Assembly (NCBI RefSeq): GCF_014349155.1
Contig: NZ_JACSIT010000078.1
Span: 1 to 64,000, forward strand
Length of the DNA stretch: 64,000 nt
DNA from: Neolewinella lacunae
GTDB lineage: Bacteria; Bacteroidota; Bacteroidia; Chitinophagales; Saprospiraceae
Direction: 5' to 3'
The notes under the pieces were generated by a model. The model searched no databases. It saw only the letters and a program-made list of their open reading frames with translations, and was not told where the DNA came from. How positions within the stretch are numbered: the stretch's first letter is position 1; each line of letters opens with the position of its first letter. Below, piece by piece: positions 6,077-63,062 of this stretch. The position numbers and the translations under genes are program-made.

Positions 6077-6094
6077 GGGCGCGGCCGCAGGTGC
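6077..6094 (-). repeat. 18-bp dispersed repeat, exact copy
   Basis: GCACCTGCGGCCGCGCCC read on the minus strand. Intergenic, 95 bp upstream of yjdM and just before its -7 box. First copy from the left; none lies in the RHS/IS island. Confidence 0.9.
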
Positions 6095-6131
6095 GAGGTA
6101 CGCCACGCTGAAAGCAAGGGAAGCCCTAATC

Positions 6132-6190
6132 TTATTCCAACATCACCTTACCCATTAGGGTCCTTCCGCCGTCGCGCACCACATTAGGGG
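6132..6190 (-). pseudogene. Relic of a T9SS C-terminal sorting domain
   Basis: Conceptual translation ends VVRDGGRTLMGKVMLE followed by TAA. This lines up with the end of the T9SS cargo protein encoded at 10095-10958 (VRDAGRVMMGKVVLE). No start or body of the gene remains in the roughly 310-bp gap, so this is the 3' stump of a deleted paralogue. The rest of the gap (5983-6291) holds one 18-bp repeat and nothing else I recognise. Confidence 0.55.
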
Positions 6191-6291
6191 GATAACTACA
6201 GTCCTTCCGTATGCTCCCCTTCGAACCCAGTCAGGCTAATCTCAATGCCGAAAATATGATACCAAATCCTCATTCCTGTATTTCACCTCCG

Positions 6292-8049
6292 TCATTCTAT
6301 GATCACCAAGTTGTCCGTTGTCTCGAAATAAGCGTAAAATTGTTGGCTGCCACTGGGGAAAGCTCCGAATTGTAAATGGTGAGGCAGGCTACGCAGAAAG
6401 GTAAAATCAGTAGCGTTAAAAATAGACGTGGAACCAGCCGCCAATTGGCCGTCGTCAGAGATGGCAAGGAGGTAGTCATTGAAAGAACCCGCTAAGCTGT
6501 TGAGGGACGATGTTAGTCGTTTCTGTCTTCCGTGAAAAAGGCATGCACCGTCCGCAGAAATAAGGATACGGTAATAAAAGGCGTGGAAGAGATTCGTAAT
6601 GCTGGTCTCCATGGTAAGTAGTCCATCCGCTGCAAAGTAGCGCTGTAGTGTGCCGCCAAAAGGCTCATCGCTCCCTACGTAAAGCAAGCCACTGGCCGCG
6701 TGATAGGTAGCCGTGGGATATCGACCAATGGGTATTTCACTCAATAACTCACCAGAAGTTCCACTGTATAACCGCAGCATACCTGGAAAATCATCAGTAA
6801 AATATACCAGATTGCCCATACCGACCTCCACCAGACCTGAAGAATGATTATGTGAATCGTCAGAAGGCAATTCAATCTCAATAGTACGCAGAGCCATCTG
6901 ACGCTCTAGGTCAAATACTTCTACTACTTGTTGTCCTTCGATAAGCACATAAAGCCGGTCAGCCGAAGTATTCAGATGGAAGGACACCGGTTTGCCATTA
7001 AGGGGCAGGCTATGCGTTACCGCTCCTGCATCCACATCGATAAAAAGTAAGCGCTCATTCTGCTGATCAAGCGCATATAGAAAAGAACGCGTAGGGTCGG
7101 CTATAAGGCCCCCTAGCTTACCGCCAACATTAACTGTGGGATACTGAAATTCTGCAACCAAATCATCTGACACCAAGTTTCGGGATTCTAGTTGTTTTGT
7201 AATCCGGTATTTCGCCTCCCTACCAACTATAGCCTCAGTATCGGTAAAAGTACGCTCCGAAAAAGGCAAGAAAGCAATGTCCATCTCCTCTCCCGTATCC
7301 TCATAAATACGGGTAACTACGTAACGAATGAATTGGGTGCTGTCCCTGCTTTCCCATTCGATTACTGTGCCTGTCAAGCTCGCTTGAGCAAGTATCAGTA
7401 CCGGGGTATCGGGCACAGGCACTACATCGACTAAGCCCCTGTCACTATCAGAGAGATCCGTATCATCTGTAATTTTGAAGGTAAGCTCGTGCCTGCCCAG
7501 CGAAGTAAGTGCAAATCTTAAATCACTGGCAAAAAAACCTGTCGGCCCTTGAAAAACTACCCCATCAAGACTACTGGTGATTGTTAGACTCCAAGGTATG
7601 CCCATCGGCTGGTCCTCATCTCTGATTAAAAACCCTACTGTTATTGAGTCTCCCAGCAAAAATATAGAAGCAAAGTTCTCATTAAATGAATTAATTTCCA
7701 GATCGGGCGGGTTATTCCCCTCTCTAAATTTGATCTCTCCGCGAAATACTGGGTGATCGTTTATGGTGAACGCTACAGACATTGTTCCAAAGACAGTATC
7801 TTTAGCAACAAATAAATAATCTCCAGTCGGGATATCGCGAAATCGAACAATCCCGTTTGCATCGGTAACCTGAGCCCCTACACCTTCCACAGCAGGAGTA
7901 ATGGTAACAACAACACCCGTAAGCGGACCATTGGGATTGGTCACCGTTATCTCTGCTGAACCAGTAAGTATCATCTCTACTTTTTCGCAAGTGGAGCCTA
8001 ACAATATCACCAGCAGCACTGGCAAGCCATAATAAAGAGATATTTTCAT
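6292..8049 (-). CDS. Lipoprotein with carboxypeptidase-regulatory-like and beta-propeller domains
   Basis: 585 residues from the ATG at 8049, chosen because it gives a lipoprotein signal (MKISLYYGLPVLLVILLGSTC) and sits 11 bp after the upstream gene; a longer frame to 8223 would overlap that gene. Order: lipobox Cys about residue 20; a transthyretin-like domain ('AEITVTNPNGPLTGVVVTIT'); an Ig/PKD-like and fibronectin-type stretch; from about residue 300 a WD/YVTN-type propeller ('SFLYALDQQNERLLFIDVDA', 'LYVGSDEPFGG'). Likely a surface or periplasmic binding/scaffold lipoprotein of unknown ligand. It is a paralogue of the gene immediately upstream and probably co-transcribed with it. Confidence 0.75.
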   Translation of the reverse strand: MKISLYYGLPVLLVILLGSTCEKVEMILTGSAEITVTNPNGPLTGVVVTITPAVEGVGAQVTDANGIVRFRDIPTGDYLFVAKDTVFGTMSVAFTINDHPVFRGEIKFREGNNPPDLEINSFNENFASIFLLGDSITVGFLIRDEDQPMGIPWSLTITSSLDGVVFQGPTGFFASDLRFALTSLGRHELTFKITDDTDLSDSDRGLVDVVPVPDTPVLILAQASLTGTVIEWESRDSTQFIRYVVTRIYEDTGEEMDIAFLPFSERTFTDTEAIVGREAKYRITKQLESRNLVSDDLVAEFQYPTVNVGGKLGGLIADPTRSFLYALDQQNERLLFIDVDAGAVTHSLPLNGKPVSFHLNTSADRLYVLIEGQQVVEVFDLERQMALRTIEIELPSDDSHNHSSGLVEVGMGNLVYFTDDFPGMLRLYSGTSGELLSEIPIGRYPTATYHAASGLLYVGSDEPFGGTLQRYFAADGLLTMETSITNLFHAFYYRILISADGACLFHGRQKRLTSSLNSLAGSFNDYLLAISDDGQLAAGSTSIFNATDFTFLRSLPHHLQFGAFPSGSQQFYAYFETTDNLVIIE

Positions 8050-8059
8050 AGCAGAACGA

Positions 8060-9796
8060 TTAAAAAGGGCTAACCAGGATAAGGTTGGAAAACATTTCGT
8101 GCGAAAAGAGGCGATTGTTGGCTGCATCGTATGCAGTAAAGTCCACACCGATACGAGAAGGCCCAAGAGGGATAAAGTTTTCCATATCCCAAATCCATTC
8201 GGCTCCGAGTGCCCGACTACCATCGCGGTTAGTTGCGTGAAGTTGTTCGCTGGCTCGCCCTAACAACGTCAAATCCGTAGCTCGGTATTTAGCCGTATGG
8301 TACATCACTACCCTTCCATCGGTACTTAGCGAAAGCCGTTTACTGCCAAAGTCTTCGGCAATTTGCCTGGCGGTAATTTGCCACTGCTGGTTGGGGCTAA
8401 TGACAAAACGTACCAATTCGCTAGCTGAACTATTAGTTTGGTACGTAAAAAGCGCGTTGCGCTCCAAATTGGCATGTAGGCCAAAGTAGTTGACTTGAGT
8501 AACATCCAATAAAAGGCCATCCGAAGCCCTTAATAGAAAGAGATCAGAGACAACAAAAGGCGCTGCACCCACGGCCAGATAACCGCCAGCCAAGTACTCA
8601 ATTCGCCCGCCACTAGTAATTGCCTGCGGCAAGGGTAAATAATGGCTAATTTGCCGATTGATAAGATCGACTACCGCAATCTGGTTACTTCCCTCGGCAA
8701 CTGCATAAAGCGTATCTCCCGTCAAATCAAGACTGAGGTCTTGCGGGTTAGCCCCAACGAATAAGGCACTTTCTACCGCCAGGGAATTTGTGTTGATAAA
8801 AAGTAATTGATTGCTGGTTTGGTCCAATGCATATAGGTAGGGCCGTCGTGCATCAGCGGTGAGGGCTACAACTGTGTTTTGAAGGGTGATCGCTGGCAAA
8901 TCCACTCTCCCGGAGACTAATTCACTTATTTCACTGGCATGAGAGGGGAAATTGACAACCAAAAAATAACGCATCTCTTTATTAAAAGGAAAGTCACTGT
9001 CTATGTACGTGTTAGCAGACCGTTCAGAAGAAGAAAAAAGCAAATCTTCTAGGGTCTCCCCCTCTCGGTACCTCCAGAGCTGGTATTCGAAGTCACCCGG
9101 CCGCTCCCACTCTTCCCAAGTGATCTTCAGGTCAGTGCCGATTTGCTCAACCGAAACAATGGTAGGAAACTGGAGCATCGGTACTACCTGAATAGTCACA
9201 CTATCCGTAGCAACACGACCCTCAGTATCTGTTACCTCAAACCGGATCAAATGCTCGCCTACGGTAAGATCATCTCGCAGAAAAGTAGAAGTACCATCAG
9301 GCTCTGCCCGTTCTGTTGAAAGCTCCCCGTCTAAGCTACTTGTCCAGCGTACCGACAAGGCGGAAGCCTCATCCCGATCATCTTGGACATTACCGAAGAA
9401 GTATACATCTTCACCATTGCGAAATATCGCGTTATCGATATTAGTAGGATGCACCAATTCGATTTCCGGAGGGCGGTTTACCCTCCCCTCCAGAAAAAAA
9501 TAAAAATCGGATGTCTCCTCATCTTTGACGGAAACCAAACCCGTTGCCATGCCAAATTCAGGGTGGCTGGCTTCGACGAGGTAATCGAGAGGGCTAATAT
9601 CGACGAATTCAACCATTCCAGTGGTATCCGTTAGCATCGATTGCCCACCAGGGTCCAGCGAAATCATTACACCTTCTACCCGTCCGTCTGGATTGGTAAC
9701 CGTCACCCGCAAGGTCCCCGCCTCTTCCTTCTGGCAACCTAAAACACTAAGTAGTAGGAAACAGCCATAAACCATCGGGGTCAACAGTCGAATCAT
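8060..9796 (-). CDS. Lipoprotein with carboxypeptidase-regulatory-like and beta-propeller domains (paralogue)
   Basis: 578 residues with lipoprotein signal MIRLLTPMVYGCFLLLSVLGC. Same architecture as the next gene: transthyretin-like domain ('LRVTVTNPDGRVEGVMISLD'), PKD/Ig-like segment ('GEHLIRFEVTDTEGRVATDS'), fibronectin-like segment, then propeller blades ('RPYLYALDQTSNQLLFINTN', 'DTLYAVAEGSNQIAVVDLI'). The two genes are 11 bp apart and clearly arose by tandem duplication, but they have diverged well beyond simple copies. I know no substrate. The upstream region 9797-9959 holds no gene I can support. Confidence 0.75.
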   Translation of the reverse strand: MIRLLTPMVYGCFLLLSVLGCQKEEAGTLRVTVTNPDGRVEGVMISLDPGGQSMLTDTTGMVEFVDISPLDYLVEASHPEFGMATGLVSVKDEETSDFYFFLEGRVNRPPEIELVHPTNIDNAIFRNGEDVYFFGNVQDDRDEASALSVRWTSSLDGELSTERAEPDGTSTFLRDDLTVGEHLIRFEVTDTEGRVATDSVTIQVVPMLQFPTIVSVEQIGTDLKITWEEWERPGDFEYQLWRYREGETLEDLLFSSSERSANTYIDSDFPFNKEMRYFLVVNFPSHASEISELVSGRVDLPAITLQNTVVALTADARRPYLYALDQTSNQLLFINTNSLAVESALFVGANPQDLSLDLTGDTLYAVAEGSNQIAVVDLINRQISHYLPLPQAITSGGRIEYLAGGYLAVGAAPFVVSDLFLLRASDGLLLDVTQVNYFGLHANLERNALFTYQTNSSASELVRFVISPNQQWQITARQIAEDFGSKRLSLSTDGRVVMYHTAKYRATDLTLLGRASEQLHATNRDGSRALGAEWIWDMENFIPLGPSRIGVDFTAYDAANNRLFSHEMFSNLILVSPF

Positions 9797-9959
9797 AAGG
9801 CACTGACTTTAGAAAGGTGAAAATGGGTCTAACGTGGCGGTTGACTCTAAGTATAGTTGATCCTCCTGAGTCAAAACGAAAACCATCATTCACCTGTATA
9901 GTTTGACTATTAAATGTTAATCTTTTATCCTACTACGCCTCCATCAAACAGGGCATTCA

Positions 9960-10094
9960 CCCCGCTAAAACCAGTATGCTCAAACGTGCCCGTGCCTGCC
10001 TTAAACCCAAAGGCCTTTCCTGCGGCGGGTACTGCGTCGCTTATGCTGTTTAACTTGTTCGTCCCGGCTTGGACGCTGTAAGTCAAATTACCAA
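9960..10094 (-). pseudogene. Relic of an RHS-cassette leader
   Basis: Minus-strand translation reads ...TNKLNSISDAVPAAGKAFGF, then KAGTGTF, matching the segment 'TPLNSVTDASPAAGKAFGF' + 'QPGTGTF' of both RHS genes. Similarity is lost on both sides. It directly abuts the stop of the T9SS cargo gene at 10095. It is a fourth trace of RHS cassettes in the first 10 kb and more diverged than the others. Confidence 0.6.
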
Positions 10095-11199: not shown

Positions 11200-11233
11200 C
11201 GTTACATCAGGACTGCGCAAAGACGATCACCCC

Positions 11234-13921
11234 CTACCCCTCCAACATCCTCCGCAATTCATTCAGCTTCATCATACACTCAATCGGCGTCATATTGTTG
11301 AGGTTCAATTCCTCCAGCGCCGCTTTGATGCGGCCCGCCGTAGGGTCCACCGTTTCGAAAATGGACAGCTGGGGTGCGGGCTGGGAAAATTGCCGGGCCG
11401 CAACGGGTTTCGCCTGAGGGCCCGCCTGGCCTTGCTCCTTATCCCGCAACTCCGCACCTGCGGCCGCGCGCCCATCGGCATCAATGTGCTGTGATTCCAA
11501 CTGCGCCAGAATATCCGTGGCCCGGGTAATGATCTCCGGCGGCATACCCGCCATACGCGCTACGTGGATGCCGAAACTGTGCTGACTGCCGCCGGGAACG
11601 AGCCGCCGCAAAAAGATGATCCGGTTGCCGTGCTCCTTGATGGCTATCGAATAATTGCGGATGCGCGGATGGCGGTCCGCCAACTCATTGAGTTCGTGGT
11701 AGTGGGTGGCAAACAACGTCTTGGGCCGCGCCTGCCCGTTGCTGTGCAGGTATTCCGCAATGGCCCAGGCGATGCTGATGCCATCAAACGTACTCGTGCC
11801 GCGGCCAATTTCGTCGAGCAAGACCAGGCTGCGGTCGGTCACGTTGTTCATGATCGAGGCCGTCTCGTTCATCTCCACCATGAAGGTCGATTCGCCGCTG
11901 CTGATGTTGTCGCTGGCCCCCACGCGGGTGAACACCCGGTCAATGAGCCCCAGCCGCGCCCGCTCCGCCGGCACAAAACTCCCCATCTGCGCCATCAGGC
12001 ATATCAGGGCCGTCTGCCGCAGCAGCGCCGATTTACCCGCCATGTTCGGACCGGTAATCATGATGATTTGCTGGTCTTCGGGGTCCAGGTGCACGTCGTT
12101 GGGCACGTACTGCTCCCCTACCGCCAGCTGCCGTTCAATGACCGGGTGGCGGCCCTGGATGATTTCAATGTCCTTGGAATCGTCCAGCTCCGGCATCACG
12201 TAGCGGTTGCGGTTGGCGATCTTGGCGAAGGAAAGCAGACAGTCCAGCTTGCCGATCAAGGCCGCGTTCTGCTGCACCGGCGAAATGTAGTCTTGCAACC
12301 ACACGATGAGGTCTTCGTAAAGCGCTTCCTCGCGCTGGAGGATTTTGTCTTCGGCGTTGAGGATTTTGTCCTCCAGGATTTTGAGTTCCTCGGTGATGTA
12401 GCGCTCGCCGTTGGTGAGGGTTTGCTTGCGCGTCCAGTCGGCCGGAGCCTGGTCTTTGTATTTGTTGGTCACCTCCAGGTAGTAGCCAAAGACGTTATTG
12501 AAGCCAATCTTGAGGCTGCTGATGCCCGTCCGCTCGGCTTCGCGGCGCTGGATATCGGCCAGACGGCCCTTGCCGTTGCGGGTGATGTCGCGCAGGTCGT
12601 CCAACTCAGCGTCGAAGCCATCGGCGATGACGCCCCCCTTGTTGAGGTTGACGGCCGGCGATTCCTGCAGGCGGCGGTCAATTTCCGCCCCCACGGCCGG
12701 CAAGTCATCCAGGCGCTCCGCCATGTCGGCCAGCACGGGGTTAGCCGACTCGGCCAGCAGCCGCCGGATGGGGCCCAGCGCGCTGAGGGCAGCGCGGAGC
12801 GACCTTACTTCCCGGGGATTGACCTTGCCCAGCGGGACTTTGGAAATCAGGCGCTCCAGATCGCCAATGACGCGGAGCCTTTCGTCGAGGTCCTGCAACA
12901 GCGCCGGCCGCTCCACCAGGGCCCGCACCACCGTATGCCGGGCGCGGATGGCTTCAGCGTCGAGCAAGGGCAACACCACCCATTTGCGCAGCAGACGGCC
13001 ACCCATGGGGGTGACGGTGTGGTCCAGCACCTCCACCAGCGGCACGCCGTTGTCGTGCGGACTGTACAGCAGCTCCAGGTTGCGGATCGTGAAGCGGTCG
13101 AGCCAGACGTAACGGTCGTTGGCCAGGCGATTGATGCGCGTGATGTGCTGGAGGTTGCGGTTTTCCGTAGTTTCCAGGTAGTGCAGTATGGCTCCGGCGG
13201 CAATCTGTCCCAGCAGCAATTTTTCAATGCCAAAGCCCTTCAGGCTGATGGCCTGGAATTGCCGCAGGAGCTTTTCCTGCGTGTAATCTTCGGTAAAAAT
13301 CCACTCGTCACGCGGGGTGAGGTAAAAGCGGTCGCCGAAGCGCTCGAGAAAGTCTTTTTTGCGGTCTTTGCTCAGCAGCACTTCCTTGGGCTGGAAGCTT
13401 TGCAGGAGCTTATCGGTGTAGTCCGCCGGGCCTTCGGCTACCAGAAATTCCCCCGTACTGATGTCCAGCAGACTCAGGCCATACTGGTCGCGCTTGCCGC
13501 CCGCGTAAGTGACGCAGGCCAGGAAGTTGTTCGTCTTGTGCTCCAGCAGTTTATCGTCCACCGCCAGGCCCGGCGTGACGATTTCGGTGACGCCCCGGCG
13601 GACGATCTTTTTCTCCTTCGAGGGTTTCTCCAGCTGTTCACAGATGGCCACGCGGTAGCCCGCCTTCACCAGCCGGGGCAGGTAGGTGTCCAGACTGTGG
13701 TAGGGGAAACCCGCCAGCTCTACGTCGCTGCCGCCGTTGTTGCGGCTCGTCTGGATAATCCCCAGGGTCTGGGCCGTCTTGATGGCGTCTTCGCCGAAGG
13801 TCTCGTAGAAATCCCCCACGCGGAAAAGCAGCAGGCTATCCGGGTGCTTGGCCTTCACCTGCTGGTACTGTTTCATCAGCGGCGTTACCTTGCCGTCGCC
13901 CTTGTCCTTGGATTTTGCCAT
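11234..13921 (-). CDS. mutS: DNA mismatch repair protein MutS
   Basis: 895 residues from the ATG at 13921 (MAKSKDKGDGKVTPLMKQYQ); longer frames upstream are not conserved. MutS recognises mismatches and recruits MutL. Seen: mismatch-binding domain with the diagnostic 'RVGDFYETF' near residue 40, connector and lever domains, clamp, and the ATPase domain with Walker A 'ITGPNMAGKSALLRQT', 'SSGESTFMVEM' and Walker B 'SLVLLDEIGRGTSTFDG'. Length is normal for the family. The C-terminal linker (about residues 817-823, 'GRAAAGA') is encoded by a near-exact copy of the dispersed 18-bp repeat. A TATCTTCG box lies 5 bp before the ATG. Confidence 0.97.
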   Translation of the reverse strand: MAKSKDKGDGKVTPLMKQYQQVKAKHPDSLLLFRVGDFYETFGEDAIKTAQTLGIIQTSRNNGGSDVELAGFPYHSLDTYLPRLVKAGYRVAICEQLEKPSKEKKIVRRGVTEIVTPGLAVDDKLLEHKTNNFLACVTYAGGKRDQYGLSLLDISTGEFLVAEGPADYTDKLLQSFQPKEVLLSKDRKKDFLERFGDRFYLTPRDEWIFTEDYTQEKLLRQFQAISLKGFGIEKLLLGQIAAGAILHYLETTENRNLQHITRINRLANDRYVWLDRFTIRNLELLYSPHDNGVPLVEVLDHTVTPMGGRLLRKWVVLPLLDAEAIRARHTVVRALVERPALLQDLDERLRVIGDLERLISKVPLGKVNPREVRSLRAALSALGPIRRLLAESANPVLADMAERLDDLPAVGAEIDRRLQESPAVNLNKGGVIADGFDAELDDLRDITRNGKGRLADIQRREAERTGISSLKIGFNNVFGYYLEVTNKYKDQAPADWTRKQTLTNGERYITEELKILEDKILNAEDKILQREEALYEDLIVWLQDYISPVQQNAALIGKLDCLLSFAKIANRNRYVMPELDDSKDIEIIQGRHPVIERQLAVGEQYVPNDVHLDPEDQQIIMITGPNMAGKSALLRQTALICLMAQMGSFVPAERARLGLIDRVFTRVGASDNISSGESTFMVEMNETASIMNNVTDRSLVLLDEIGRGTSTFDGISIAWAIAEYLHSNGQARPKTLFATHYHELNELADRHPRIRNYSIAIKEHGNRIIFLRRLVPGGSQHSFGIHVARMAGMPPEIITRATDILAQLESQHIDADGRAAAGAELRDKEQGQAGPQAKPVAARQFSQPAPQLSIFETVDPTAGRIKAALEELNLNNMTPIECMMKLNELRRMLEG
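11454..11471 (+). repeat. 18-bp dispersed repeat, 17/18 copy inside mutS
   Basis: GCACCTGCGGCCGCGCGC on the plus strand. It encodes alanine-rich linker residues of MutS between the ATPase domain and the extreme C-terminus, a stretch expected to tolerate change. Confidence 0.85.
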
Positions 13922-14022: not shown

Positions 14023-14040
14023 GGGCGCGGCCGCAGGTGC
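14023..14040 (-). repeat. 18-bp dispersed repeat, exact copy
   Basis: Lies in the 188-bp gap between mutS and the RloB gene. It is inverted relative to the exact copy at 16190-16207, so the two bracket the RloB/ATPase pair. Confidence 0.9.
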
Positions 14041-16189: not shown

Positions 16190-16207
16190 GCACCTGCGGC
16201 CGCGCCC
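16190..16207 (+). repeat. 18-bp dispersed repeat, exact copy
   Basis: Exact GCACCTGCGGCCGCGCCC, immediately followed (16205-16270) by a low-complexity run built from CCCCTTTAATCC/CCCTTTACTCC-type units. A similar A/G-rich run (other strand sense) follows the copy at 63045. Confidence 0.9.
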
Positions 16208-21415: not shown

Positions 21416-23995
21416 ATGAAGTATTACCAACTCCTCCTTGCTTCCTTCCTTCTGGGAGCCTGGCTTTTGATCGGCAGCTACCCCGGGCTTGGGGGCTTAC
21501 CCGTGCCGGCACTGGGGGAATTTTTCAACCCTGCCACCGGTTTCTGGCGCAATACGCAGCCCGCCCTTTCCCTCCGCCGTGGGCAACGCAGCATCGCCAG
21601 CGCACACCCGCTGGCCGCTGGCGACATCTTCTTTGACGACCGCGGCGTCCCCCACATTTTCGCCCCAACCCTGGAGAACGCCTGCTTCCTCCAAGGCTAC
21701 AGCCACGCCGCCGACCGCCTCTGGCAGATGGATATTTCCACCCGTGCAACCGAAGGCACCCTGAGCGAGGTCCTCGGCCAGCGCACCCTGGAGCGCGACC
21801 GCGACCAAGTCCGCCGTGGTTTCCGCTCCGCCGCCCAGCGGGAAATTGATACCATGCGCGTCCATTTCCCCGACGATTACCGCTACCTGGAAGCCTACGC
21901 CGCAGGTATCAATGCCTGGATCGATCAACTCCAACCCAGGGATTACCCCGTAGAGTACAAACTTCTCGGCCACCAGCCGCTGCACTGGAGCCCCTACCGT
22001 ACCGCCCTGCTGATGAAGGGCATGTCCCAATCCCTGAGCGGCTACAACGTCGATGCCAAAACCGTAAAAACCCGCGAGCGCCTGGGGGCGGAACGCTACG
22101 CAGAGCTGTTCCCCGAGCGCTTCCCCGGCGCCAGCCCGATCGTCCCCGACGCCAGCGGAGCGAGACCCTCGGCCGTTCCCACACTGCCCGTGCTGCCCAT
22201 TCCTGAGGTTGGCGATGCCAGCGCCCCCGGCCCCACACTTCCGCAGCGGGACTTTGCTGGCCAGCCTTCCCCCGCACCTGCGGCCGCGCCCACTACTACC
22301 AGCCGCTCCGCCTACCACGCAGGCTCCCCCCAACTGAATACGCTGACCGACCCACACGCGGTGCCCGAGGCCCTGCCCTACACCCTTCTCCCCCCTCACC
22401 CAAGCAACGGCTCCAACAACTGGGCGGTGAGCAGCGAGCATTCCAACACGGGCTACCCCCTGCTGGCCAGCGACCCCCACCTTAACCTTACCCTGCCCAG
22501 CATCTGGTGTGAAGTCCAGATTCACCTGCCCGGCGTAAACGCCCGCGGCGTCGGCCTCCCCGGTGCCCCCGGCATCATGATTGGCTTCAACGACCACGTC
22601 GCCTACGGCGAAACCAACGTTGGCCACGACGTGACCGACTGGTTCAAGATCACCTGGACGGACTCTTCCCGCACCCACTATCTGCTGGACGGGGCACCGA
22701 CTCCCGCCACGCTCGTCCGCGATACGCTGCGGGTGAAGGGGCAGGCCGCTGAGGTCATCGTCACCCCCTACACCATTTTCGGGCCGGTGCCTTATACGGA
22801 AGGCCCCTACGCCGACCACGCCATGCGCTACCTGGCCCAGGACGCGCCCGGGGCGGGGCAGCGCCCCCACACCATCGTGGGAACCTTTCTGGGCCTGATG
22901 CGGGCCACCAACTACGGCGACTACGAGCAGGCGCTGCGGGGTTACGTAGACCCCGCCCAGAATTTCCTCTTCGCCGCCAAGGATGGTGACATTGCCATCC
23001 GCCCCAATGGCTTTTTCCCTCTGCGCGGAACGGGCAACGGCACCACCCCCGCTGCCGGAGACACCCGGGCCAACAACTGGCGGGGCTATATCCCCTTCGA
23101 GGAGCGCCCCGTACACCGCAACCCCACCCGCGGCTTCGTCTCTTCGGCCAATCAGGTGACTACCGGCCCCTACTACCCTTACCCCTACACGGGAAATTTT
23201 GATGAATACCGTGGCCGTTACATCAACCGAAGACTCAGCGACGAGCCCATCTTCAACCAGCGCACGATGAAGGAACTGCAACTGAGCAGCTACTCCCTGC
23301 TGGCCGAAGAACTTACCCCCATCCTCATCGCCCGCATCAACCGCAAATCCCTCACCCCCGAAGGCCAGGCCCTGCTGCGCGTCATCTCCGAATGGGACTA
23401 CCACTACGAAGGCAATAGCCGCGCCCCTACGCTGTTCGAGGCCTGGCGTACCAAAGTATACGACCTGACTTTCGACGAGATCCCCCAGGATTCCGGCTAC
23501 GTCACCCCCGAACTCTGGAAATGGAATGCTTTGCTTCGTACCCAGCCCGATCATCCCATCTTCGACGTTCAGGCCAGCGACAATTTCGTCGAAACCGGCG
23601 CAACCCTCACCCAGCGGGCCTTCGATGAAATTCTGGAATCCCTGGGCGGCGAACTGCCCGCCACCTGGGCTGAAACCCGCGCTTCCTACGTACGTCACCT
23701 CGGGGCCATTCCCGGCTTCGGTTCCGGCCTCATCACCACCGGCGGCGGCCGCCACAGCCCCCGCGCCCTCAACGGCGGCAACGGTGCCAGCTGGCGAATG
23801 GTCGTGGAGCTCGGCCCCCGCCCCCGCGCCTGGGGAGCCCTGCCAGGAGGAGCCTCCGGCGACCCCGCCAGCATCTACTACGACTTCGAACTAGACAACT
23901 GGGAACACGGTCGCTACCACGAACTCGTACGCTGGGAAGACGTCACCGACGCCAAAAACAAAGCAAACGGACACTGGGCGTTCGGGGGGGATTAG
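21416..23995 (+). CDS. Penicillin-acylase-family Ntn hydrolase
   Basis: 859 residues from the ATG at 21416, which gives an N-terminal hydrophobic signal/anchor (YYQLLLASFLLGAWLLIG). These enzymes are exported, cut themselves and use the new N-terminal Ser to hydrolyse amide side chains (beta-lactams, acyl-homoserine lactones, others). Seen: alpha chain from about residue 75 ('FFDDRGVPHIFA', 'LWQMDIS'), the autocleavage site 'NGSNNWAV' with Ser333 as nucleophile, then 'LLASDPHLNLTLPSIWCEVQ' and 'GVGLPGAPGIMIGFN'. The spacer before Ser333 contains an exact 18-bp repeat (residues 287-292). The substrate cannot be told from sequence. Confidence 0.9.
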   Translation: MKYYQLLLASFLLGAWLLIGSYPGLGGLPVPALGEFFNPATGFWRNTQPALSLRRGQRSIASAHPLAAGDIFFDDRGVPHIFAPTLENACFLQGYSHAADRLWQMDISTRATEGTLSEVLGQRTLERDRDQVRRGFRSAAQREIDTMRVHFPDDYRYLEAYAAGINAWIDQLQPRDYPVEYKLLGHQPLHWSPYRTALLMKGMSQSLSGYNVDAKTVKTRERLGAERYAELFPERFPGASPIVPDASGARPSAVPTLPVLPIPEVGDASAPGPTLPQRDFAGQPSPAPAAAPTTTSRSAYHAGSPQLNTLTDPHAVPEALPYTLLPPHPSNGSNNWAVSSEHSNTGYPLLASDPHLNLTLPSIWCEVQIHLPGVNARGVGLPGAPGIMIGFNDHVAYGETNVGHDVTDWFKITWTDSSRTHYLLDGAPTPATLVRDTLRVKGQAAEVIVTPYTIFGPVPYTEGPYADHAMRYLAQDAPGAGQRPHTIVGTFLGLMRATNYGDYEQALRGYVDPAQNFLFAAKDGDIAIRPNGFFPLRGTGNGTTPAAGDTRANNWRGYIPFEERPVHRNPTRGFVSSANQVTTGPYYPYPYTGNFDEYRGRYINRRLSDEPIFNQRTMKELQLSSYSLLAEELTPILIARINRKSLTPEGQALLRVISEWDYHYEGNSRAPTLFEAWRTKVYDLTFDEIPQDSGYVTPELWKWNALLRTQPDHPIFDVQASDNFVETGATLTQRAFDEILESLGGELPATWAETRASYVRHLGAIPGFGSGLITTGGGRHSPRALNGGNGASWRMVVELGPRPRAWGALPGGASGDPASIYYDFELDNWEHGRYHELVRWEDVTDAKNKANGHWAFGGD
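22274..22291 (+). repeat. 18-bp dispersed repeat, exact copy inside the acylase gene
   Basis: Encodes APAAAP in the removable spacer peptide about 41 residues before the nucleophile Ser333. Same reading phase (x-APAAAP-x) as the copy inside coaX. Confidence 0.9.
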
Positions 23996-25661: not shown

Positions 25662-25679
25662 GGGCGCTTACGCAGGTGC
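25662..25679 (-). repeat. 18-bp dispersed repeat, diverged copy
   Basis: Plus strand GGGCGCTTACGCAGGTGC: both arms kept, three changes in the centre. Upstream of gcvT. Confidence 0.6.
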
Positions 25680-34607: not shown

Positions 34608-34625
34608 GCACCTGCGGCCGCGCCC
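34608..34625 (+). repeat. 18-bp dispersed repeat, exact copy
   Basis: In the 329-bp gap between the giant surface protein gene and the TPR gene, 217 bp upstream of the former's ATG. Apart from the terminator at 34655-34696 the gap holds nothing else I recognise. Confidence 0.9.
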
Positions 34626-37498: not shown

Positions 37499-38243
37499 AA
37501 TAAGACAGTATTTGATGGAGGCCGAACAAGACCAGGTTGGGGTGAAGGGAACAGGGAATGGATAATTGGCCGGCCAGCCATTCGGCGTCGCCTCCGGTGA
37601 GCAGGAGTTCGAGCCCGGGGAAGTCTTCCACCAGGCGGTGAAACATTCCTTCCGTCTCGTACACCAGTCCCATTTGCCCACCGTGCTGCAGTGCTTCTAC
37701 CGTACTGCGCCCTACGGCATCCGGGAGTTCCGGAGCGGATTCCACCAGGGGCAGGCGCGCCGTGAACTCGTGCATTGCCCGCAGGCGCATGCGCAGGCCC
37801 GGGCCGATGTTACCGCCCAGGTGGACGCCGGCGGCAGTGACCAGATCATAAGTCACGCAGGTGCCCGCGTCGACAATCAGTTTGGGCGCGGCCGCAGGTG
37901 CGGTGGAAGGTGAAAGAGCCAGGCTTCCCGCCACCACCGCAATACGATCCTGGCCCAGTGTTGAGCGCGTAGCGTATTCCGTTGCGAAGGGCAGAGGCAG
38001 CGCCGGACTGAGTGCCAAAACGAGACAATCGTCTTTTTCCCATTTATCTATCCACTGGGATGGAGGCACGTTTGCCACCGTGGAATAGATGATTTTTTTC
38101 ACCCCATGGTTGGTTACCATCCGGTCGGCCACCTCCCACTCAGTGTGGGTAAAGCGTTGGACCGGCCCGATCATGGCCTCGCCCCGGAACACGGCCGCTT
38201 TCGCTCCGGAATTTCCGATGTCAATGGCGAGGTGGCTGAACAT
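37479..38243 (-). CDS. coaX: Type III pantothenate kinase
   Basis: 254 residues from the ATG at 38243; an ATG at 38258 is also possible. It phosphorylates pantothenate in the first step of coenzyme A synthesis, using an ASKHA fold. Seen: phosphate-1 loop 'LAIDIGNSGAKAAVF', 'GQDRIAVVAG' (conserved G.DR), 'LIVDAGTCVTYDLV' (phosphate-2) and 'GGNIGPGLRMRLRAMHEFTA'. The loop just before LIVDAGT carries the residues APAAAP encoded by an exact 18-bp repeat (about residues 115-120). It is followed by the barrel and TPR genes and preceded by purH. Confidence 0.94.
   Translation of the reverse strand: MFSHLAIDIGNSGAKAAVFRGEAMIGPVQRFTHTEWEVADRMVTNHGVKKIIYSTVANVPPSQWIDKWEKDDCLVLALSPALPLPFATEYATRSTLGQDRIAVVAGSLALSPSTAPAAAPKLIVDAGTCVTYDLVTAAGVHLGGNIGPGLRMRLRAMHEFTARLPLVESAPELPDAVGRSTVEALQHGGQMGLVYETEGMFHRLVEDFPGLELLLTGGDAEWLAGQLSIPCSLHPNLVLFGLHQILSYYVENEL
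37884..37901 (-). repeat. 18-bp dispersed repeat, exact copy inside coaX
   Basis: Encodes APAAAP directly before the 'LIVDAGTC' strand of CoaX, in the same phase as in the acylase gene. Confidence 0.9.
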
Positions 38244-42578: not shown

Positions 42579-42596
42579 AGGCGCGGCCGCAGGTGC
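42579..42596 (-). repeat. 18-bp dispersed repeat, 17/18 copy
   Basis: Forms an inverted pair with 42706-42722, enclosing a 143-bp gene-free segment (42580-42722) that contains a C/G-tract dyad CCCCCC-GAT-GGGGGG near 42606-42621. Confidence 0.85.
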
Positions 42597-42705
42597 TCCC
42601 CCCCGCCCCCCCGATGGGGGGAGTCAGGACAAGGAGCGAGGGACGGGAAGCCGGGAGACGGACGCGATCATCCTCCCAGGCTTCCCTTGCTTCTTCCCCA
42701 ACCTT

Positions 42706-42723
42706 GCACCTGCGACCGCGCCA
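42706..42723 (+). repeat. 18-bp dispersed repeat, 16/18 copy (central G to A)
   Basis: GCACCTGCGACCGCGCC. Directly abuts the U-tract of the terminator for the SprB-repeat gene. Confidence 0.8.
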
Positions 42724-52186: not shown

Positions 52187-52205
52187 GGGCGCGGAGCGCA
52201 GGTGC
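52187..52205 (-). repeat. 18-bp dispersed repeat, diverged copy with one extra base
   Basis: Plus strand GGGCGCGGAGCGCAGGTGC, 15 bp before the MbnP-like ATG. The right side continues GCAGGTGCCGGGAACG, shared with the copy at 58158, so the repeat unit may be longer than 18 bp. Confidence 0.65.
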
Positions 52206-55298: not shown

Positions 55299-55316
55299 GC
55301 ACCTGCGACCGCGCAA
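55299..55316 (+). repeat. 18-bp dispersed repeat, 15/18 copy
   Basis: GCACCTGCGACCGCGC with the same central G-to-A change as the copy at 42706, between the divergent HEAT and recO genes. The preceding 40 bp hold C6/G5/G6 runs like those inside the 42580-42722 segment. Confidence 0.75.
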
Positions 55317-56261: not shown

Positions 56262-56265
56262 CGCC

Positions 56266-58047: not shown

Positions 58048-58111
58048 AAAAGTCCTGCGCGGTGGTTATTAAGGCAGCGGACCCCATTCGTCCGCGCCCA
58101 CCCCTCGGCTT

Positions 58112-59863
58112 ATGACGCGATTCCTGCGCTTGATTTTGCTGCACGGTATTTTCTGTTGGGCGCTGACGCAGGTGCCGGGAACGTTGGAGGCGCAAAGCCC
58201 CCTCCGCCTCCAGGTGCGGGGCACTGACCTGGAGTGGACGGACGATCCCCCCACCCTGTCCGACAGTGCGGAGGTCTTGCGCTATCTGGCCGAGTGGCAA
58301 GCGGAGCAACAAGCCATGGCCTACTGGGAAGCTTCCGTCGATAGCCTCTACCGGACGGGAGCAAGCGCTCTCCAGGCCGTCGTTCACCGCGGTCCCCGCT
58401 ACACGTGGGGCCAGCTTCGCCCCCCCACCAATCCCGAGTTTTTGGCCTGGGCGCGGCAGGCGGGGTACCGACCGCAGCGCTTCCGGCCCGGGCGGCGCTT
58501 TACGCCGGGGCAGTGGACGGCCCTGCGCGACAGCCTGGTGGTGGGTGCTGCCGACCGCGGTTACCCTTTCGCGGCGGTGGGCCTGGACAGCATCAGTTGG
58601 GAAGCACCGGGGGAACTCTCGGGTGTCATTGCCGTGCAGCCGGGTCCGCTGGTGCGCTACGGCGAAGTGCGACCACCCGCCGGCCTGCGCGTCCGCACCG
58701 CCTTTCTCGAGCGCTACCTCGGCATCCGCCCCGGGGAGGTGTACCGCGAAAGCCGCGTCCGCCGCATGGGCAATTACCTGGCTCAACTGCCTTACCTTAC
58801 CGTTAAGGGCCCGCCGACCATCACTTTCGTGGATAGCCTGGCCTTTTTCGATCTGGCCATCGAGCGCCGCGCCGCCAGCCGCTTCGATTTCGTCATCGGC
58901 GTCTTGCCCAATAGTGGTACTGACGGCCGACTGCTGCTGACGGGCGACCTCAACGGAGAGTTGTTCAATGGCTTTGGGCAGGGCGAGCGCATCGCCGTGC
59001 GTTTTGAGCAGCTCCGCCCCCAAACCCAGGAATTGGCCCTGGCATTGGAATACCCTTTCTTGTTCAACCTGCCCTTCGGCTTCGAAGGGGAGCTGGATTT
59101 TTACCGGCGGGACTCCTCCTTCCTCAACCTCAACTGGCGCCTGGCGGCCACCTACCTACGGGAGGGCAACGACCGGCTGGCGGTGTTCTGGGAAAACCGC
59201 CGGACGATCATCCCCGGCGGAGCAGCGCTTTCTTCCGGTGAATTGCCCGATACCCTGGGCGTGAGCAGGTCTTTTTTCGGTTTGCAATTGCGCCGGGTGC
59301 GGACGGACCGCCGCTTTAGTCCCCGCAATGGCTACGCGCTGGACCTCAACGCCGCCGCTGGCCTCCGCAAATTGCTGGACGTGGCGGCCAGCGACAGCTT
59401 GAACCTGGCCAGCAACCAACTCAAGTTGGAAGGGCGTTTCGATGCCTACTTCGATCCTTGGGCGGGAACGGTGCTCTACTTTGGCCTGCGGGGGGGAGGC
59501 CTCTTCGGTGACGGGGAAGTGCTGGCCAATGAGCAGTACCGGCTGGGCGGCGCGAAATTACTGCGTGGCTTTGATGAGCAATCGGTCTTCGCCAGAGACT
59601 ACCTCCTGGCTACCGCCGAGTTTCGTCTGCTGCTGGGCGGCAATGCCTACCTCTACAGTTTTGTGGATGCGGCCCGCCTGAATCCCCGCAGCCAGGCCAA
59701 GCCGGAGCTGGCCATTGACTACCCGCTCGGCTTCGGGGCGGGCGTTAATTTTGAAACCCGGGCGGGCGTCTTTGCCCTGAGCCTGGCCCTGGGACGGAGG
59801 AATGGCTTGCCGCTGGATCTGGGCGCGCCGAAGGTTCACCTGGGTTACCTCAGCGTTTTCTGA
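58112..59863 (+). CDS. Omp85/BamA-like outer-membrane protein
   Basis: 583 residues. Signal peptide to about residue 28 ('FCWALTQVPGTLEAQ'); part of it is encoded by a diverged copy of the dispersed repeat. Residues about 130-240 are POTRA-like ('GYPFAAVGLDSISWEAPGEL', 'YLGIRPGEVYRESRVRRMGN'). The C-terminal ~350 residues form a surface-antigen D15-type barrel ('LRGGGLFGDGEVLANEQYRL', 'GGAKLLRGFDEQSVFARDYL'). It is too short for BamA and ends in Phe, as outer-membrane proteins do ('LGYLSVF'). Role in outer-membrane assembly or secretion is inferred. Its end overlaps the convergent gene by 19 bp. Confidence 0.85.
   Translation: MTRFLRLILLHGIFCWALTQVPGTLEAQSPLRLQVRGTDLEWTDDPPTLSDSAEVLRYLAEWQAEQQAMAYWEASVDSLYRTGASALQAVVHRGPRYTWGQLRPPTNPEFLAWARQAGYRPQRFRPGRRFTPGQWTALRDSLVVGAADRGYPFAAVGLDSISWEAPGELSGVIAVQPGPLVRYGEVRPPAGLRVRTAFLERYLGIRPGEVYRESRVRRMGNYLAQLPYLTVKGPPTITFVDSLAFFDLAIERRAASRFDFVIGVLPNSGTDGRLLLTGDLNGELFNGFGQGERIAVRFEQLRPQTQELALALEYPFLFNLPFGFEGELDFYRRDSSFLNLNWRLAATYLREGNDRLAVFWENRRTIIPGGAALSSGELPDTLGVSRSFFGLQLRRVRTDRRFSPRNGYALDLNAAAGLRKLLDVAASDSLNLASNQLKLEGRFDAYFDPWAGTVLYFGLRGGGLFGDGEVLANEQYRLGGAKLLRGFDEQSVFARDYLLATAEFRLLLGGNAYLYSFVDAARLNPRSQAKPELAIDYPLGFGAGVNFETRAGVFALSLALGRRNGLPLDLGAPKVHLGYLSVF
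58158..58175 (-). repeat. 18-bp dispersed repeat, diverged copy in a signal peptide
   Basis: Plus strand GGGCGCTGACGCAGGTGC, encoding part of 'WALTQVP' (residues 16-21). It shares the extension CCGGGAACG with the copy at 52187. Confidence 0.6.
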
Positions 59864-60642: not shown

Positions 60643-60818
60643 GTAAAATAGCGGTGGTTATGGCGTGGGGCCAAGGTACGGACAAATCGTGGGATGGTGC
60701 CTGGTACCGAACGGGCACCGTCCGCTGCCTCCCTAAAGCCCCGTGCGATACCTACGGCATTCCTGGCACAGTAGGTTTCTCCCCAAAAGGTTTCCCCATC
60801 CACATCCCCAAAAACGAG

Positions 60819-60853
60819 GAAGACCCCGCTCCGGGGGTGGAGCGGGGTCTTCG
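60819..60853 (-). terminator. Terminator of tRNA-Leu
   Basis: Perfect 14-bp stem GAAGACCCCGCTCC/GGAGCGGGGTCTTC followed on the minus strand by CTCGTTTTTGG, 7 bp past the tRNA. Confidence 0.9.
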
Positions 60854-60859
60854 GTAAAG

Positions 60860-60944
60860 TGCCCAGGACAGGAGTCGAACCTGCACGTCCGTAATGGACA
60901 CCAGCCCCTCAAGCTGGCGTGTCTACCAATTTCACCACCTGGGC
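60860..60944 (-). tRNA. tRNA-Leu (anticodon GAG)
   Basis: 85 nt class II tRNA. Acceptor GCCCAGG pairs with CCTGGGC; D-loop 'GAAATTGGTAGACAC'; anticodon arm CCAGC-TTGAGGG-GCTGG with anticodon GAG at 60908-60910; long variable arm GTCCATTACGGAC; T arm GCAGG-TTCGACT-CCTGT. Reads CUC/CUU codons. The 3' CCA is not encoded. Confidence 0.97.
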
Positions 60945-60983
60945 GTGGATGCCTGAGGCCCAACGGATGGGCTCAAGCGGACG

Positions 60984-60991
60984 CAAAAGTA
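60984..60991 (-). promoter_or_regulatory. Predicted -7 box TACTTTTG for tRNA-Leu
   Basis: Matches TAnnTTTG, 39 bp before the tRNA 5' end. Confidence 0.45.
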
Positions 60992-61188
60992 ATGCGCCCA
61001 CCCGGATCGAACAATAGTTGGGCAAAAAATAGTTCCCAAGGCACTTCATCCCGTGGACCGCACCGCCCAACAACCGACCGAAAAGTGGCACCCCCCAGAA
61101 AATCTCTTGCCTCCCCCCATAAAGTGACACGAGCTTAAACTTTTTATCGTCTCAACAATTAATGTAGATACATCAAATATCGCAAACC

Positions 61189-61902
61189 ATGCAAACCATC
61201 TTCCATCCCGCCAGCAGCCGGGGTTTTGCCGACCACGGTTGGCTCCAATCTGCCCACACGTTCAGTTTTGCCAACTACTACGACCCTGAGCGGATCCACT
61301 TCGGTGCTTTGCGGGTATTGAACGACGACAAGGTGGCCGCCGGTCGGGGCTTTGGCAAACATCCCCACGATAACATGGAGATCATTTCCATTCCGCTAGC
61401 GGGTGACCTGCGCCACGAAGACTCTTTGGGCAACACCACCATCATCCGGCAGGGCGACGTGCAGGCGATGAGCGCAGGCACCGGCGTTGCCCACAGTGAA
61501 ATGAACGCCAACACCGACCAGGCCGTCGAATTCCTCCAGATCTGGGTTTTCCCCCGCGAGCGGGACGTAACCCCCAGCTACTCTCAAATTACCCTTGACG
61601 CCACACGCCTGGAAAACCGGCTGGAGCAGATCGTCTCTCCCGATGCTGCTGGCCCCGGGGTTACGGTGCAGCAGGATGCCTGGTTCCACCTCGGCAAACT
61701 CGCGGCGGGTACGGAACACAGCTACCAGGTTAAGAAGCCGGGCAACGGCGTGTACGCTTTTCTCCTCTCCGGCGAAGCAAGCGTTGCTGGCCAAACGATG
61801 GGCAAGCGCGACGGGCTCGGCGTCTGGGAAACCGACCAAATGACCATTGAGGTGAACGCCGACGCAGAATTGCTGCTGATGGAAGTCCCCATGTCTTTCT
61901 AA
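61189..61902 (+). CDS. Pirin-family bicupin protein
   Basis: 237 residues, YhhW-like. N-terminal cupin with the metal-binding set 'GFGKHPHDNMEIISIPLAG' (His, His, Glu) and 'GTGVAHSEMNANTD' (His); C-terminal cupin with 'HSYQVKKPGNGVYAFLLSG'. Known: some pirins act as quercetin 2,3-dioxygenases or redox sensors. Cytoplasmic. It begins a rightward run with the nitroreductase gene 109 bp later, and both fit a redox-stress theme, though co-regulation is not shown. Confidence 0.93.
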   Translation: MQTIFHPASSRGFADHGWLQSAHTFSFANYYDPERIHFGALRVLNDDKVAAGRGFGKHPHDNMEIISIPLAGDLRHEDSLGNTTIIRQGDVQAMSAGTGVAHSEMNANTDQAVEFLQIWVFPRERDVTPSYSQITLDATRLENRLEQIVSPDAAGPGVTVQQDAWFHLGKLAAGTEHSYQVKKPGNGVYAFLLSGEASVAGQTMGKRDGLGVWETDQMTIEVNADAELLLMEVPMSF

Positions 61903-62011
61903 TCTAACCAAAAAAACTGAACAATAAGGCCAGGTATTTTCTTTGGTGGGCAAGTTGGCTAAAGGGCCACTTTCCGCAATGAGTGTACCAAACCTGTAAA
62001 ACAAGCTCAAA

Positions 62012-62656
62012 ATGACTACGACTTCTTCTTCCCTCTTGACCGACCTCAACTGGCGCTACGCCACCAAGAAGTTCGACACCAGCAAAAAAGTGAGTGCCGA
62101 AGACTTGGAAACCATCATGTCGGCCGTCAACCTTGCGGCCACTTCCTACGGCCTACAGCCCTTCCGCGTGATGCACGTGCAAGACCCTGCCGTGCGGGAA
62201 AAACTCAAGGCGGCTGCCTACGGACAACCGCAGATCACGGACGCCGACCACCTTTTCGTCTTCTGCCACCTGCTGGAGGTGTCGGACGAGTACGTTGACG
62301 ACTACATCGCCCGCATTGCTGCCGAGCGTAACACGGACGTAGCCAACCTCAAAGGTTTTGGGGATACGATCAAGGGTAGCCTGGGCAACAAAACTTCGCA
62401 AGAGGTGGCCGACTGGACCCGCCGCCAAGCCTACATTGCTCTGGGCCACTTATTGGTCACTGCCGCGACCCTGCGCGTGGATAGTTGCCCGATGGAAGGC
62501 TTCGATGCCGCCGCCTTTGGGGAGATCCTGGGTCTGAAAGACCAGGGCCTGGGGGCGGCCGTAGTCGCCACGGTAGGCTACCGTTCCGAAGAAGATCAGC
62601 TCCAGCACGCGGCCAAGGTTCGCCTGCCCCTCACCGAACTGTTCCACACCGTTTAA
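62012..62656 (+). CDS. Nitroreductase-family NAD(P)H-dependent oxidoreductase
   Basis: 214 residues. FMN-dependent reductase of the NfsB type: 'LTDLNWRYATKKFDTSKKVS' (FMN phosphate site around RYATKKF), 'AATSYGLQPFRVMHV', 'QAYIALGHLLVTAATLRVDS', 'CPMEGFDAAAFGEILGL' and 'AVVATVGYRSEEDQLQ'. Length matches NfsB (217). Reduces nitroaromatics or quinones in vitro; the natural substrate is unknown. Confidence 0.94.
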   Translation: MTTTSSSLLTDLNWRYATKKFDTSKKVSAEDLETIMSAVNLAATSYGLQPFRVMHVQDPAVREKLKAAAYGQPQITDADHLFVFCHLLEVSDEYVDDYIARIAAERNTDVANLKGFGDTIKGSLGNKTSQEVADWTRRQAYIALGHLLVTAATLRVDSCPMEGFDAAAFGEILGLKDQGLGAAVVATVGYRSEEDQLQHAAKVRLPLTELFHTV

Positions 62657-62723
62657 AAACTCGTGCGCGCGGCGGGGCTTGGGGCAGTTCCGCCGCAGCC
62701 CCGCCGCGCGCCACTTTTCTCCC

Positions 62724-63017
62724 ATGGTCCACATCCTCAGTATTTCCACCAACCGGGAGACCCTGCGCATCCTCGATCGCCTGGTCAACCAGAACGAAGC
62801 CTGGACGGGTTTGCCCGCGCCCGACTTCGCCAGCGCCAAGGCATTGTTGGTAGAGCACGACTTCGACCTCGCCCTGATCGGCAGTGGCATCAGCGCCTGG
62901 GAACAAGAGGCGTTGGCAGAACTGGTGGTAGAAACCGGAAAAAAGACGAAGTTGGTACCCCACTTTGGCGGGGGCAGTGGACTGCTCTACGCGGAGATTG
63001 CCCAAGCGCTGGATTGA
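62724..63017 (+). CDS. Small protein, receiver-like fold, 97 residues
   Basis: No named family. Starts MVHILSISTNRETLRILDRL; the alternating hydrophobic strands and helices ('ALLVEHDFDLALIGSGISAW', 'LVVETGKKTKLVPHFGGGSG') resemble a shortened response-regulator receiver, but with no clear phospho-Asp in an aspartate pocket. It lies 67 bp after the nitroreductase gene on the same strand. Function unknown. Confidence 0.65.
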   Translation: MVHILSISTNRETLRILDRLVNQNEAWTGLPAPDFASAKALLVEHDFDLALIGSGISAWEQEALAELVVETGKKTKLVPHFGGGSGLLYAEIAQALD

Positions 63018-63044
63018 CCTACTGTCTCCTCCGTTCTGGCCGTT

Positions 63045-63062
63045 GCACCTGCGGCCGCGCCC
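63045..63062 (+). repeat. 18-bp dispersed repeat, exact copy
   Basis: Between two convergent genes, followed by an A/G-rich run of GGAATAAGGGG-type units (63065-63112), much like the (complementary) run after the copy at 16190. Confidence 0.9.

Follow-up and report, generated by a model that had tools for sequence, protein, structure and literature searches.

Seven exact copies of an 18-bp word and seven variants of it are scattered through the window, that is, the whole 64-kb stretch of DNA from the marine bacterium Neolewinella lacunae analysed here, all of them where a previous sequence-only reading had placed them. By word search, exact copies are found at 6077..6094 and 14023..14040 on the minus strand, and at 16190..16207, 22274..22291 and 63045..63062 on the plus strand, the one at 22274 being read in frame within a protein, in a variable linker (SPAPAAAPTTT). 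Another exact copy lies in gap I1 (34608..34625, plus strand, orthologous gap comparison) and the last one in frame in CoaX (37884..37901, minus strand, read as APAAAP in the CoaX comparison). Among the variants retrieved by word search, the copy at 11454..11471 (plus strand, one mismatch) lies within a long predicted minus-strand ORF, and those at 25662..25679 (minus), 55299..55316 (plus, three mismatches) and 58158..58175 (minus) have the loops TAAG, ACCG and TCAG, respectively. Gap I2 contains an inverted pair, with its left half at 42579..42596 (minus), where a G/C hairpin module adjoins the core, and its right half at 42706..42723 (plus, two mismatches), the latter being preceded by an example of the upstream leader (TTGCTTCTTCCCCAACCTT) at 42687..42705 on the plus strand. 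The remaining variant, at 52187..52205 (minus), has a 5-nt loop (GCACCTGCGCTCCGCGCCC) and was missed by an ungapped search with up to three mismatches because its centre is one base longer. This search recovered the other copies, 13 out of 14, where 0.20 would be expected by chance and 100 shuffles always gave fewer. The longer right side that the copies at 52187 and 58158 had been said to share can indeed be seen, as CGTTCCCGGCACCTGCG on the core strand. The copies at 6077, 11454 and 14023 fall within the GC-poorer first 16 kb of the window.

The core of the word is organised as GCACCT-[GCG-loop-CGC]-CC, a small stem-loop between a 5′ GCACCT and a 3′ CC flank, and a TTGCTC-like box is often found about 22 nt upstream. 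In the genome from which the window comes (5.8 Mb, hereafter G000), the loop is variable: it is GCCG in 104 of 206 copies, the remainder being spread over 34 other loops. Loop swaps are tolerated in the stem-loop, and one of the resulting forms is an 18-nt palindrome. With its 3-bp stem, the main word does not fold more stably than shuffled sequences do (z -0.01). That the arms are kept while the centre drifts, as already remarked, is central to the present analysis, the centre being the freely varying part. The methylation target suggested at GCGGCCGC finds no support for this reason, other species using other centres, and a NotI-type methylation core was rejected on the same ground. The sequence-only reading had overlooked the stem-loop and the upstream box, as well as two features described below, the strand law and the dialects of the different species.

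At up to three mismatches, 1,424 matches to the word were counted in G000 (708 and 716 by strand), versus 70 (40 and 30) for the reversed word used as control. The count is thus far above background, and a frequency no higher than background, which had been named as a ground for dismissing the element, was not what was found. Both strands are equally used, and a loop-aware pattern gives the same picture in the DNA read (107 and 116 copies). These 223 sites in 814,623 bases agree with the density of about one copy per 4 kb estimated from the window; merging copies within 500 bp leaves 191 sites. Of 187 copies, 131 fall outside predicted genes, in DNA of which about 20% is non-coding; others lie in signal peptides or in linkers of proteins. 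The orientation of the core tends to be toward the nearer gene.

In the count over related genomes proposed earlier, 17 of the 20 relatives assigned to Neolewinella by named records exceed the control at least 3.5-fold. A search of 39 genomes from other genera gave counts at or near the control, and no comparable word was found in 60 kb of the next genus (G021). A viral scan with a degenerate form of the word returned at least 120 stretches, nearly all of the matches listed having a single hit. The commonest loop differs between species, being GCCG in G000, GCAG in G013, ACCG in G019, GCCC in G011 and CTCCGG in G006, and G010 has an unrelated word of its own (645 copies, none for the control). 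Such an excess of one word throughout the genome, with dialects by lineage, is also a property of the DNA uptake sequences of Neisseriaceae such as Neisseria (DUS) and of the uptake signal sequences of Pasteurellaceae such as Haemophilus (USS).

In the pieces compared, many sites were found again at orthologous places in divergent species, and the cores persist while the flanks diverge. A same-orientation copy occupies gap I1 in G002, G005, G013, G014 and G015 as well, and the CoaX copy sits in a linker expansion common to 10 of 20 readable genomes, an old expansion. In the linker containing the copy at 22274, the G019 and G013 homologues have a same-orientation copy in that stretch, and the G014 homologue one in the opposite orientation, a flip at an orthologous linker. 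The I1 site is oriented differently in the two clades. Pair alignments gave 87% for the word versus 61% for its flanks, and 84% versus 76% for reversed control words; the conservation test is only moderately favourable because these control words are also well conserved. Conservation above the flanks, moderate against control words, and permissive placement are again found in common with DUS and USS. A currently active miniature mobile repeat, one of the roles first offered, is not supported, since many sites occupy identical orthologous places across divergent species; at the places compared, sites are shared and presence or absence by clean insertion was not seen. The word may have an older REP-like origin.

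The orientation of the copies follows a strand law, which in G000 rests on the DNA read, 14% of the genome. Two copies with the same orientation are hardly ever less than about 3 kb apart: pairs less than 2.5 kb apart comprise 79 in opposite and 7 in the same orientation, and beyond 5 kb the ratio is about 1:1. Gene-context geometry was rejected as the cause, since permuting orientation within gene context still leaves 41.1 ± 4.5 same-orientation pairs expected, and none of 1000 permutations reached 7. All 19 pairs less than 150 bp apart are inverted, and isolated neighbours of the ‘+-’ and ‘-+’ types exceed expectation to the same degree (51 and 49). The law is also observed elsewhere, with 67 opposite and 14 same-orientation pairs in 19 other genomes pooled, and 11 and 1 for the different word of G010. 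Spacing per strand is even in G000, with a mean of 7.0 kb and a CV of 0.48, versus 1.01 ± 0.06 for random placement (0/200), and none of 500 null draws was as even in G002. The combined spacing of both strands is not significant alone in G002, G012, G016 and G010. Even spacing along the genome, a further trait in common with DUS and USS, is thus seen in G000 and, per strand, in G002. The hazard is flat between 6 and 12 kb; repulsion alone therefore suffices, and spacing does not demonstrate a need for coverage. A transcription terminator or promoter was discarded, because in gaps between tandem genes the word lies about as often on the strand of the genes (40 copies) as on the opposite one (38).

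As a stem-loop repeat, mostly extragenic and lineage specific, the word resembles REP elements, though the 3-bp stem of its main form is weak. According to the main rival explanation, its close inverted pairs would be REPINs, and the exclusion would arise because direct pairs on one strand, a few kb apart or less, are excised or destabilised by a Y1 (HUH) nuclease or RAYT. Such excision would be blind to loop sequence, which matches the observations, and both the tolerance of loop swaps, palindrome included, and the consistent inversion of the closest pairs fit well. Y1_Tnp genes are present in 20 of 21 genomes. This explanation, which we find doubtful on balance, is strengthened by copies near Y1 genes in three genomes: among 30 Y1 loci read, that of G010 has its own word 17 and 300 bp downstream, a 170-aa Y1 gene of G011 has one copy 228 bp upstream and another 74 bp downstream, and for a Y1 gene of G020 these distances are 569 and 536 bp, respectively, the copies pointing outward in the last two cases. 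However, the Y1 gene read in G000 (L321, the other one being C73:83499) is part of another repeat array, and its locus of 3.3 kb lacks any complete copy of the word; at 16 of the 30 loci the loose pattern has no listed match within 700 bp. Moreover, many sites are old and stable, the copies are even per strand, and the 5′ GCACCT and 3′ CC flanks differ from the unpaired GTAG or CGTC tag described in the passages available from PMC3733652.

Strand-specific behaviour, equal use of the strands and a density of about one per 4 kb would also suit a Chi-like polar signal of recombination or degradation, halting a resecting nuclease that moves along one strand. Known Chi sequences are 5–8 nt long, whereas this word is far longer, bipartite and able to form a stem-loop. 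Moreover, the 66 Chi sites found in 250 kb of E. coli DNA are not regular in this way (per-strand CV 1.09), and we consider a Chi-like role improbable. A chromosome-architecture site, at which oriented protein binding would organise loops, could explain the even spacing and old positions, and its dialects could co-evolve with the binding protein. The linker flip and the clade-specific orientation at I1 suggest instead that local density and strand outweigh a fixed map, which makes this role quite improbable, even if a protein-binding site, as offered earlier, is still conceivable. Finally, the copies could be passive repeats, old insertions whose same-orientation neighbours were removed by homologous deletion, direct repeats being deletion-prone. 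Homologous deletion is disfavoured because the exclusion is as strong for dissimilar as for identical pairs (55 opposite and 7 same when 10 nt or less are shared, 13 and 0 for identical pairs). It also holds for the different word of G010, and cores persist as flanks diverge; a passive origin is very improbable indeed. HIP1 of cyanobacteria is likewise repeated very many times in genomes and has no established role; in contrast to the oriented Neolewinella word, it is a palindromic octamer and hence has no orientation.

The DNA-uptake-like word, also among the four roles first offered, fits best. We thus favour, tentatively and at somewhat less than even confidence, a genus-specific, strand-polar self-recognition word similar to DNA uptake sequences and spread by drive up to a density of roughly one per imported fragment on each strand. 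A cellular factor would read the word on one DNA strand, as a short stem-loop with conserved flanks. By analogy with the Neisseria and Haemophilus sequences, word-bearing DNA would be favoured in exchange, when the DNA of kin is taken up and recombined, and drive would let copies build up wherever they are tolerated. A second same-strand copy within one imported-fragment length (about 3–5 kb) would bring no added advantage and would decay; an opposite-strand copy would count independently, which would yield the observed spacing per strand. Common features with DUS and USS include more than 1000 copies, equally used strands, lineage dialects, permissive places including coding linkers, conservation above flanks and fairly even spacing. 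According to the passages available from these sources, Pasteurellaceae and Neisseriaceae are families with described uptake words (PMC7811141), and such words are less even than compaction sites would be (PMC1939737); DUS average 97% identity versus about 85%, sit in the permissive core genome and have a spacing that matches conversion fragments (PMC2397512). The DUS passages mention neither a stem-loop nor same-strand exclusion, which, like the lesser evenness of uptake words, speaks against this reading.

The Neolewinella word differs in being longer and bipartite, with a stem-loop, in belonging to another phylum, and in its strong same-strand exclusion, which we do not know for DUS or USS. 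Nor was a convincing pilus ATPase found. ComEC is present in 21 of 21 genomes. PF00437 (pilus/secretion ATPase family) gave only weak partial hits, in 20 of them. In 11 genomes the score barely passes the cut-off, not exceeding 25.5 bits, and the frames hit almost always measure some 570–1070 aa, though one in G000 has 301 aa. These hits look like other ATPases, and the machinery known for DUS and USS appears to be absent; judged on PF00437 hits only, type IV pilus uptake machinery was not found in the 21 genomes. To our knowledge, no uptake word is known in Bacteroidota. In Riemerella, of the same phylum, ComEC, DprA, ComF and RecA are required for natural transformation, along with four proteins whose function is not known, according to the part of PMC8459023 available.

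A literature search returned nothing on interspersed repeats of Saprospiraceae, natural transformation in Lewinella or Lewinella intergenic repeats, and matches for Neolewinella repeats were unrelated. We see in this word, with the same reserve, a previously undescribed class of genomic sign, a strand-polar stem-loop whose sequence is free to change between lineages, which would be needed or tolerated about once per 3–7 kb per strand and would probably act as a single-stranded-DNA tag during genetic exchange. Even if the uptake reading were wrong, an identity-independent same-strand exclusion common to unrelated words in sister lineages demands an explanation, and we know of no system that provides it. 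The orientation law is a quantitative, testable signature of the reach of a word along one strand, which can be searched in any genome. If true, a strand-resolved uptake word in Bacteroidota would mean that DNA self-recognition arose again on other machinery.

The 18-mer is a genome-wide feature of this bacterium. All 14 copies that the sequence-only reading had placed in the window are present, and at ≤3 mismatches the whole genome (G000; 5,815,296 bases in 154 contigs) contains 708 forward and 716 reverse matches, versus 40 and 30 for the control, which is the word read backwards. The same search took in 59 relatives. The word was at least 3.5-fold over its own control in 17 of the 20 same-genus relatives (323 to 1,754 matches) and below this value in G001, G006 and G010; 39 genomes of other genera had ≤37 matches each, at or near control. 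G010 (Lewinellaceae bacterium SD302) has its own dispersed 18-mer, TTGCTACTTTGTTAGCCA, unrelated to the main word, with 331 + 314 = 645 copies (≤2 mismatches; control 0) and folding as GCTA-CTTTGT-TAGC with RNA parameters.

The word follows an unexpected strand law: copies in the same orientation almost never lie within about 3 kb of each other. In the 814,623 bases of G000 (14%, window included) used for anatomy and spacing, isolated neighbouring copies alternate in orientation in 100 of 125 cases. Pairs in opposite versus same orientation number 19/0 at 0–150 bp, 13/1 at 150–600 bp, 21/3 at 600–1500 bp, 26/3 at 1.5–2.5 kb, 29/14 at 2.5–3.5 kb and 52/39 at 3.5–5 kb, and reach about 1:1 beyond 5 kb; in the window, the nearest same-strand copies are 4.7 kb apart. 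Per-strand spacing (201 intervals, 14% of G000) has a mean of 7.0 kb and a coefficient of variation (CV) of 0.48, compared with 1.01 ± 0.06 under random placement, 0.62 ± 0.04 in a simple repulsion simulation and 1.09 for Escherichia coli Chi (250 kb of the K-12 genome). The same-strand hazard, 0.01 per kb at distances under 1 kb, climbs to 0.30 at 6–8 kb and then stays near 0.30 up to 12 kb (0.43 at 12–15 kb, where intervals are few); a same-strand repulsion fading over about 3–6 kb is therefore enough to explain the spacing.

When orientation was shuffled within gene-context classes, 41.1 ± 4.5 same-orientation pairs were obtained below 2.5 kb, versus 7 observed (0 of 1000 shuffles). The law was first noticed post hoc in G000 and then tested in other genomes, most of which are individually too small to show it. 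Pooling 19 of them gave 67/14 opposite/same pairs below 2.5 kb, with a probability that is overstated because many of the regions are mutually orthologous; more independent replicates are provided by relatives in the G000 clade (25/6), members of the other clade (31/7) and G010 with its own word (11/1 in 110 kb sampled). Isolated neighbours were opposite in only 4 of 11 cases in G009, 6 of 12 in G019 and 1 of 3 in G003, with no lean towards the law, and even spacing of both strands combined was non-significant in each of G002, G012, G016 and G010 alone.

Aligned as a profile, the 187 copies with ≤2 mismatches in the G000 sample show a near-fixed core with three variable centre positions. The pattern GCACCTGCG-loop-CGCC occurs 206 times, with a loop of 4 nt in 187 copies, 5 nt in 10 and 6 nt in 9, most frequently GCCG (104 copies), and a GCG/CGC stem formed by fixed bases of the word. 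As single-stranded DNA, the main word folds to this stem (−2.7 kcal/mol) no more stably than shuffles do (z −0.01); folding is stronger when the loop is CTCCGG (z −1.58) and stronger too in the palindromic form (z −3.79). The palindrome CCCCGATAGCTATCGGGG replaces the loop and lengthens the stem in 24 copies of G019, 14 of G005 and 9 of G009 (≤2 mismatches; control 0). A TTGCTC-like box begins 19–24 nt upstream of the core in 72 of the 206 copies, and 43–44 nt upstream where a G/C hairpin module, CTCCCCCCTTCGGGGGGCCGGGGGGGA, intervenes exactly between leader and core, as at 42579 in the window; the GGGGGGA of this module immediately precedes the core in 32 of the 206. Matches to TTGCTC-N14-17-GCACC exceed control about 8- to 33-fold in G000, G002, G003, G005, G007, G009, G014, G015, G018 and G019, and number 0.6 to 5.6 times control in the remaining 11 genomes.

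Gene calls in the sample (568 genes, 80% coding) were made with our own hexamer script instead of a standard caller; by these calls, 131 of 187 copies are extragenic, versus 22% of random positions. Copies in tandem gaps have no preferred orientation relative to the genes (40 same, 38 opposite). Twelve of the 56 coding copies start inside the first 60 bases, and 10 of these are same-strand and in the frame giving CTC..A as a signal-peptide end; LCTCVSAQ is one end so encoded (one frame). The copy in the CoaX gene sits inside a linker expansion that occurs in 10 of 20 readable genomes, G007 being left out because it is split at this gene; the linker word is degenerate in G002 and G015.

In the CoaX neighbourhood, each of the seven genomes compared (G000, G002, G003, G005, G009, G014 and G018) bears a minus-strand copy in intergenic gap I2, and further gaps have copies common to several of them. 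Gap I1 contains a site at a single shared position in six members of the other clade (G001, G004, G006, G016, G017 and G020); every such copy follows the dialect of its own genome and runs opposite to the orientation seen in the G000 clade; no match was found in this gap in G008 and G012, and in G011 the only match lies elsewhere in the stretch. Between close pairs, all 13 core bases are kept in 31 of 42 orthologous comparisons and a recognisable motif in 34, counting reciprocals twice and including failed alignments. Mean identity is 87% for the core versus 61% for the flanks; reversed control words give 84% versus 76% and are identical in 11 of 25. In one protein linker, the site has the orientation of G000 in G019 and G013 and is reversed in G014. 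The sites are thus old, with turnover of some inside permissive spots.

Direct-repeat recombination was rejected as the cause of the strand law, since exclusion is alike in pairs sharing ≤10 contiguous bases (55/7 opposite/same) and in identical pairs (13/0). The main rival reading, in which the word belongs to a family of REP-like hairpins that has a Y1 nuclease (of the HUH type), looks rather unlikely. It gained slightly in weight from 3 of 30 Y1 loci (in G010, G011 and G020) with copies close by, two of the three flanked on both sides, whereas the one Y1 locus examined in G000 has no copies.

The two loci flanked on both sides are those of the Y1-transposase-like genes at L319 (G011) and L325 (G020), whose flanking copies point outward. 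The locus examined in G000 is L321 (G000:C123 near 378391), where a RAYT-like Y1 transposase gene of 222 aa lies amid an array of its own CCCGGCTGAGGGTGTCCCCACCCGAACTTCCCC repeat units. Further short tandem arrays, differing between species, occur at L238 (G005), L251 (G012) and L225 (G006). In G001, G006, G008, G011, G012, G016, G017 and G020, a Y1-transposase-like gene lies about 2.4–4.2 kb from an ORF of about 950–1070 aa with a weak T2SSE match, which may be UvrA-like.

Because the rule splits the strands, ignores gene direction and copy identity, and survives replacement of the word, it points to a trans-acting reader that acts over a few kb of a single strand; the combination of a stem with a free loop suggests that the word is read as single-stranded DNA. 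ComEC is present in 21 of 21 Neolewinella genomes, and the pilus ATPase family gave only weak partial matches there. Natural transformation occurs in the phylum (PMC8459023). The nearest analogues of the word are the uptake words DUS and USS of Neisseriaceae and Pasteurellaceae, which share its dialects, permissive placement and conservation above flanks, and whose spacing is tied to recombination tract length (PMC2397512; PMC1939737; PMC3630211). By this analogy, under an uptake drive, a second same-strand copy inside one imported fragment would be redundant, which could produce an exclusion of the kind observed.
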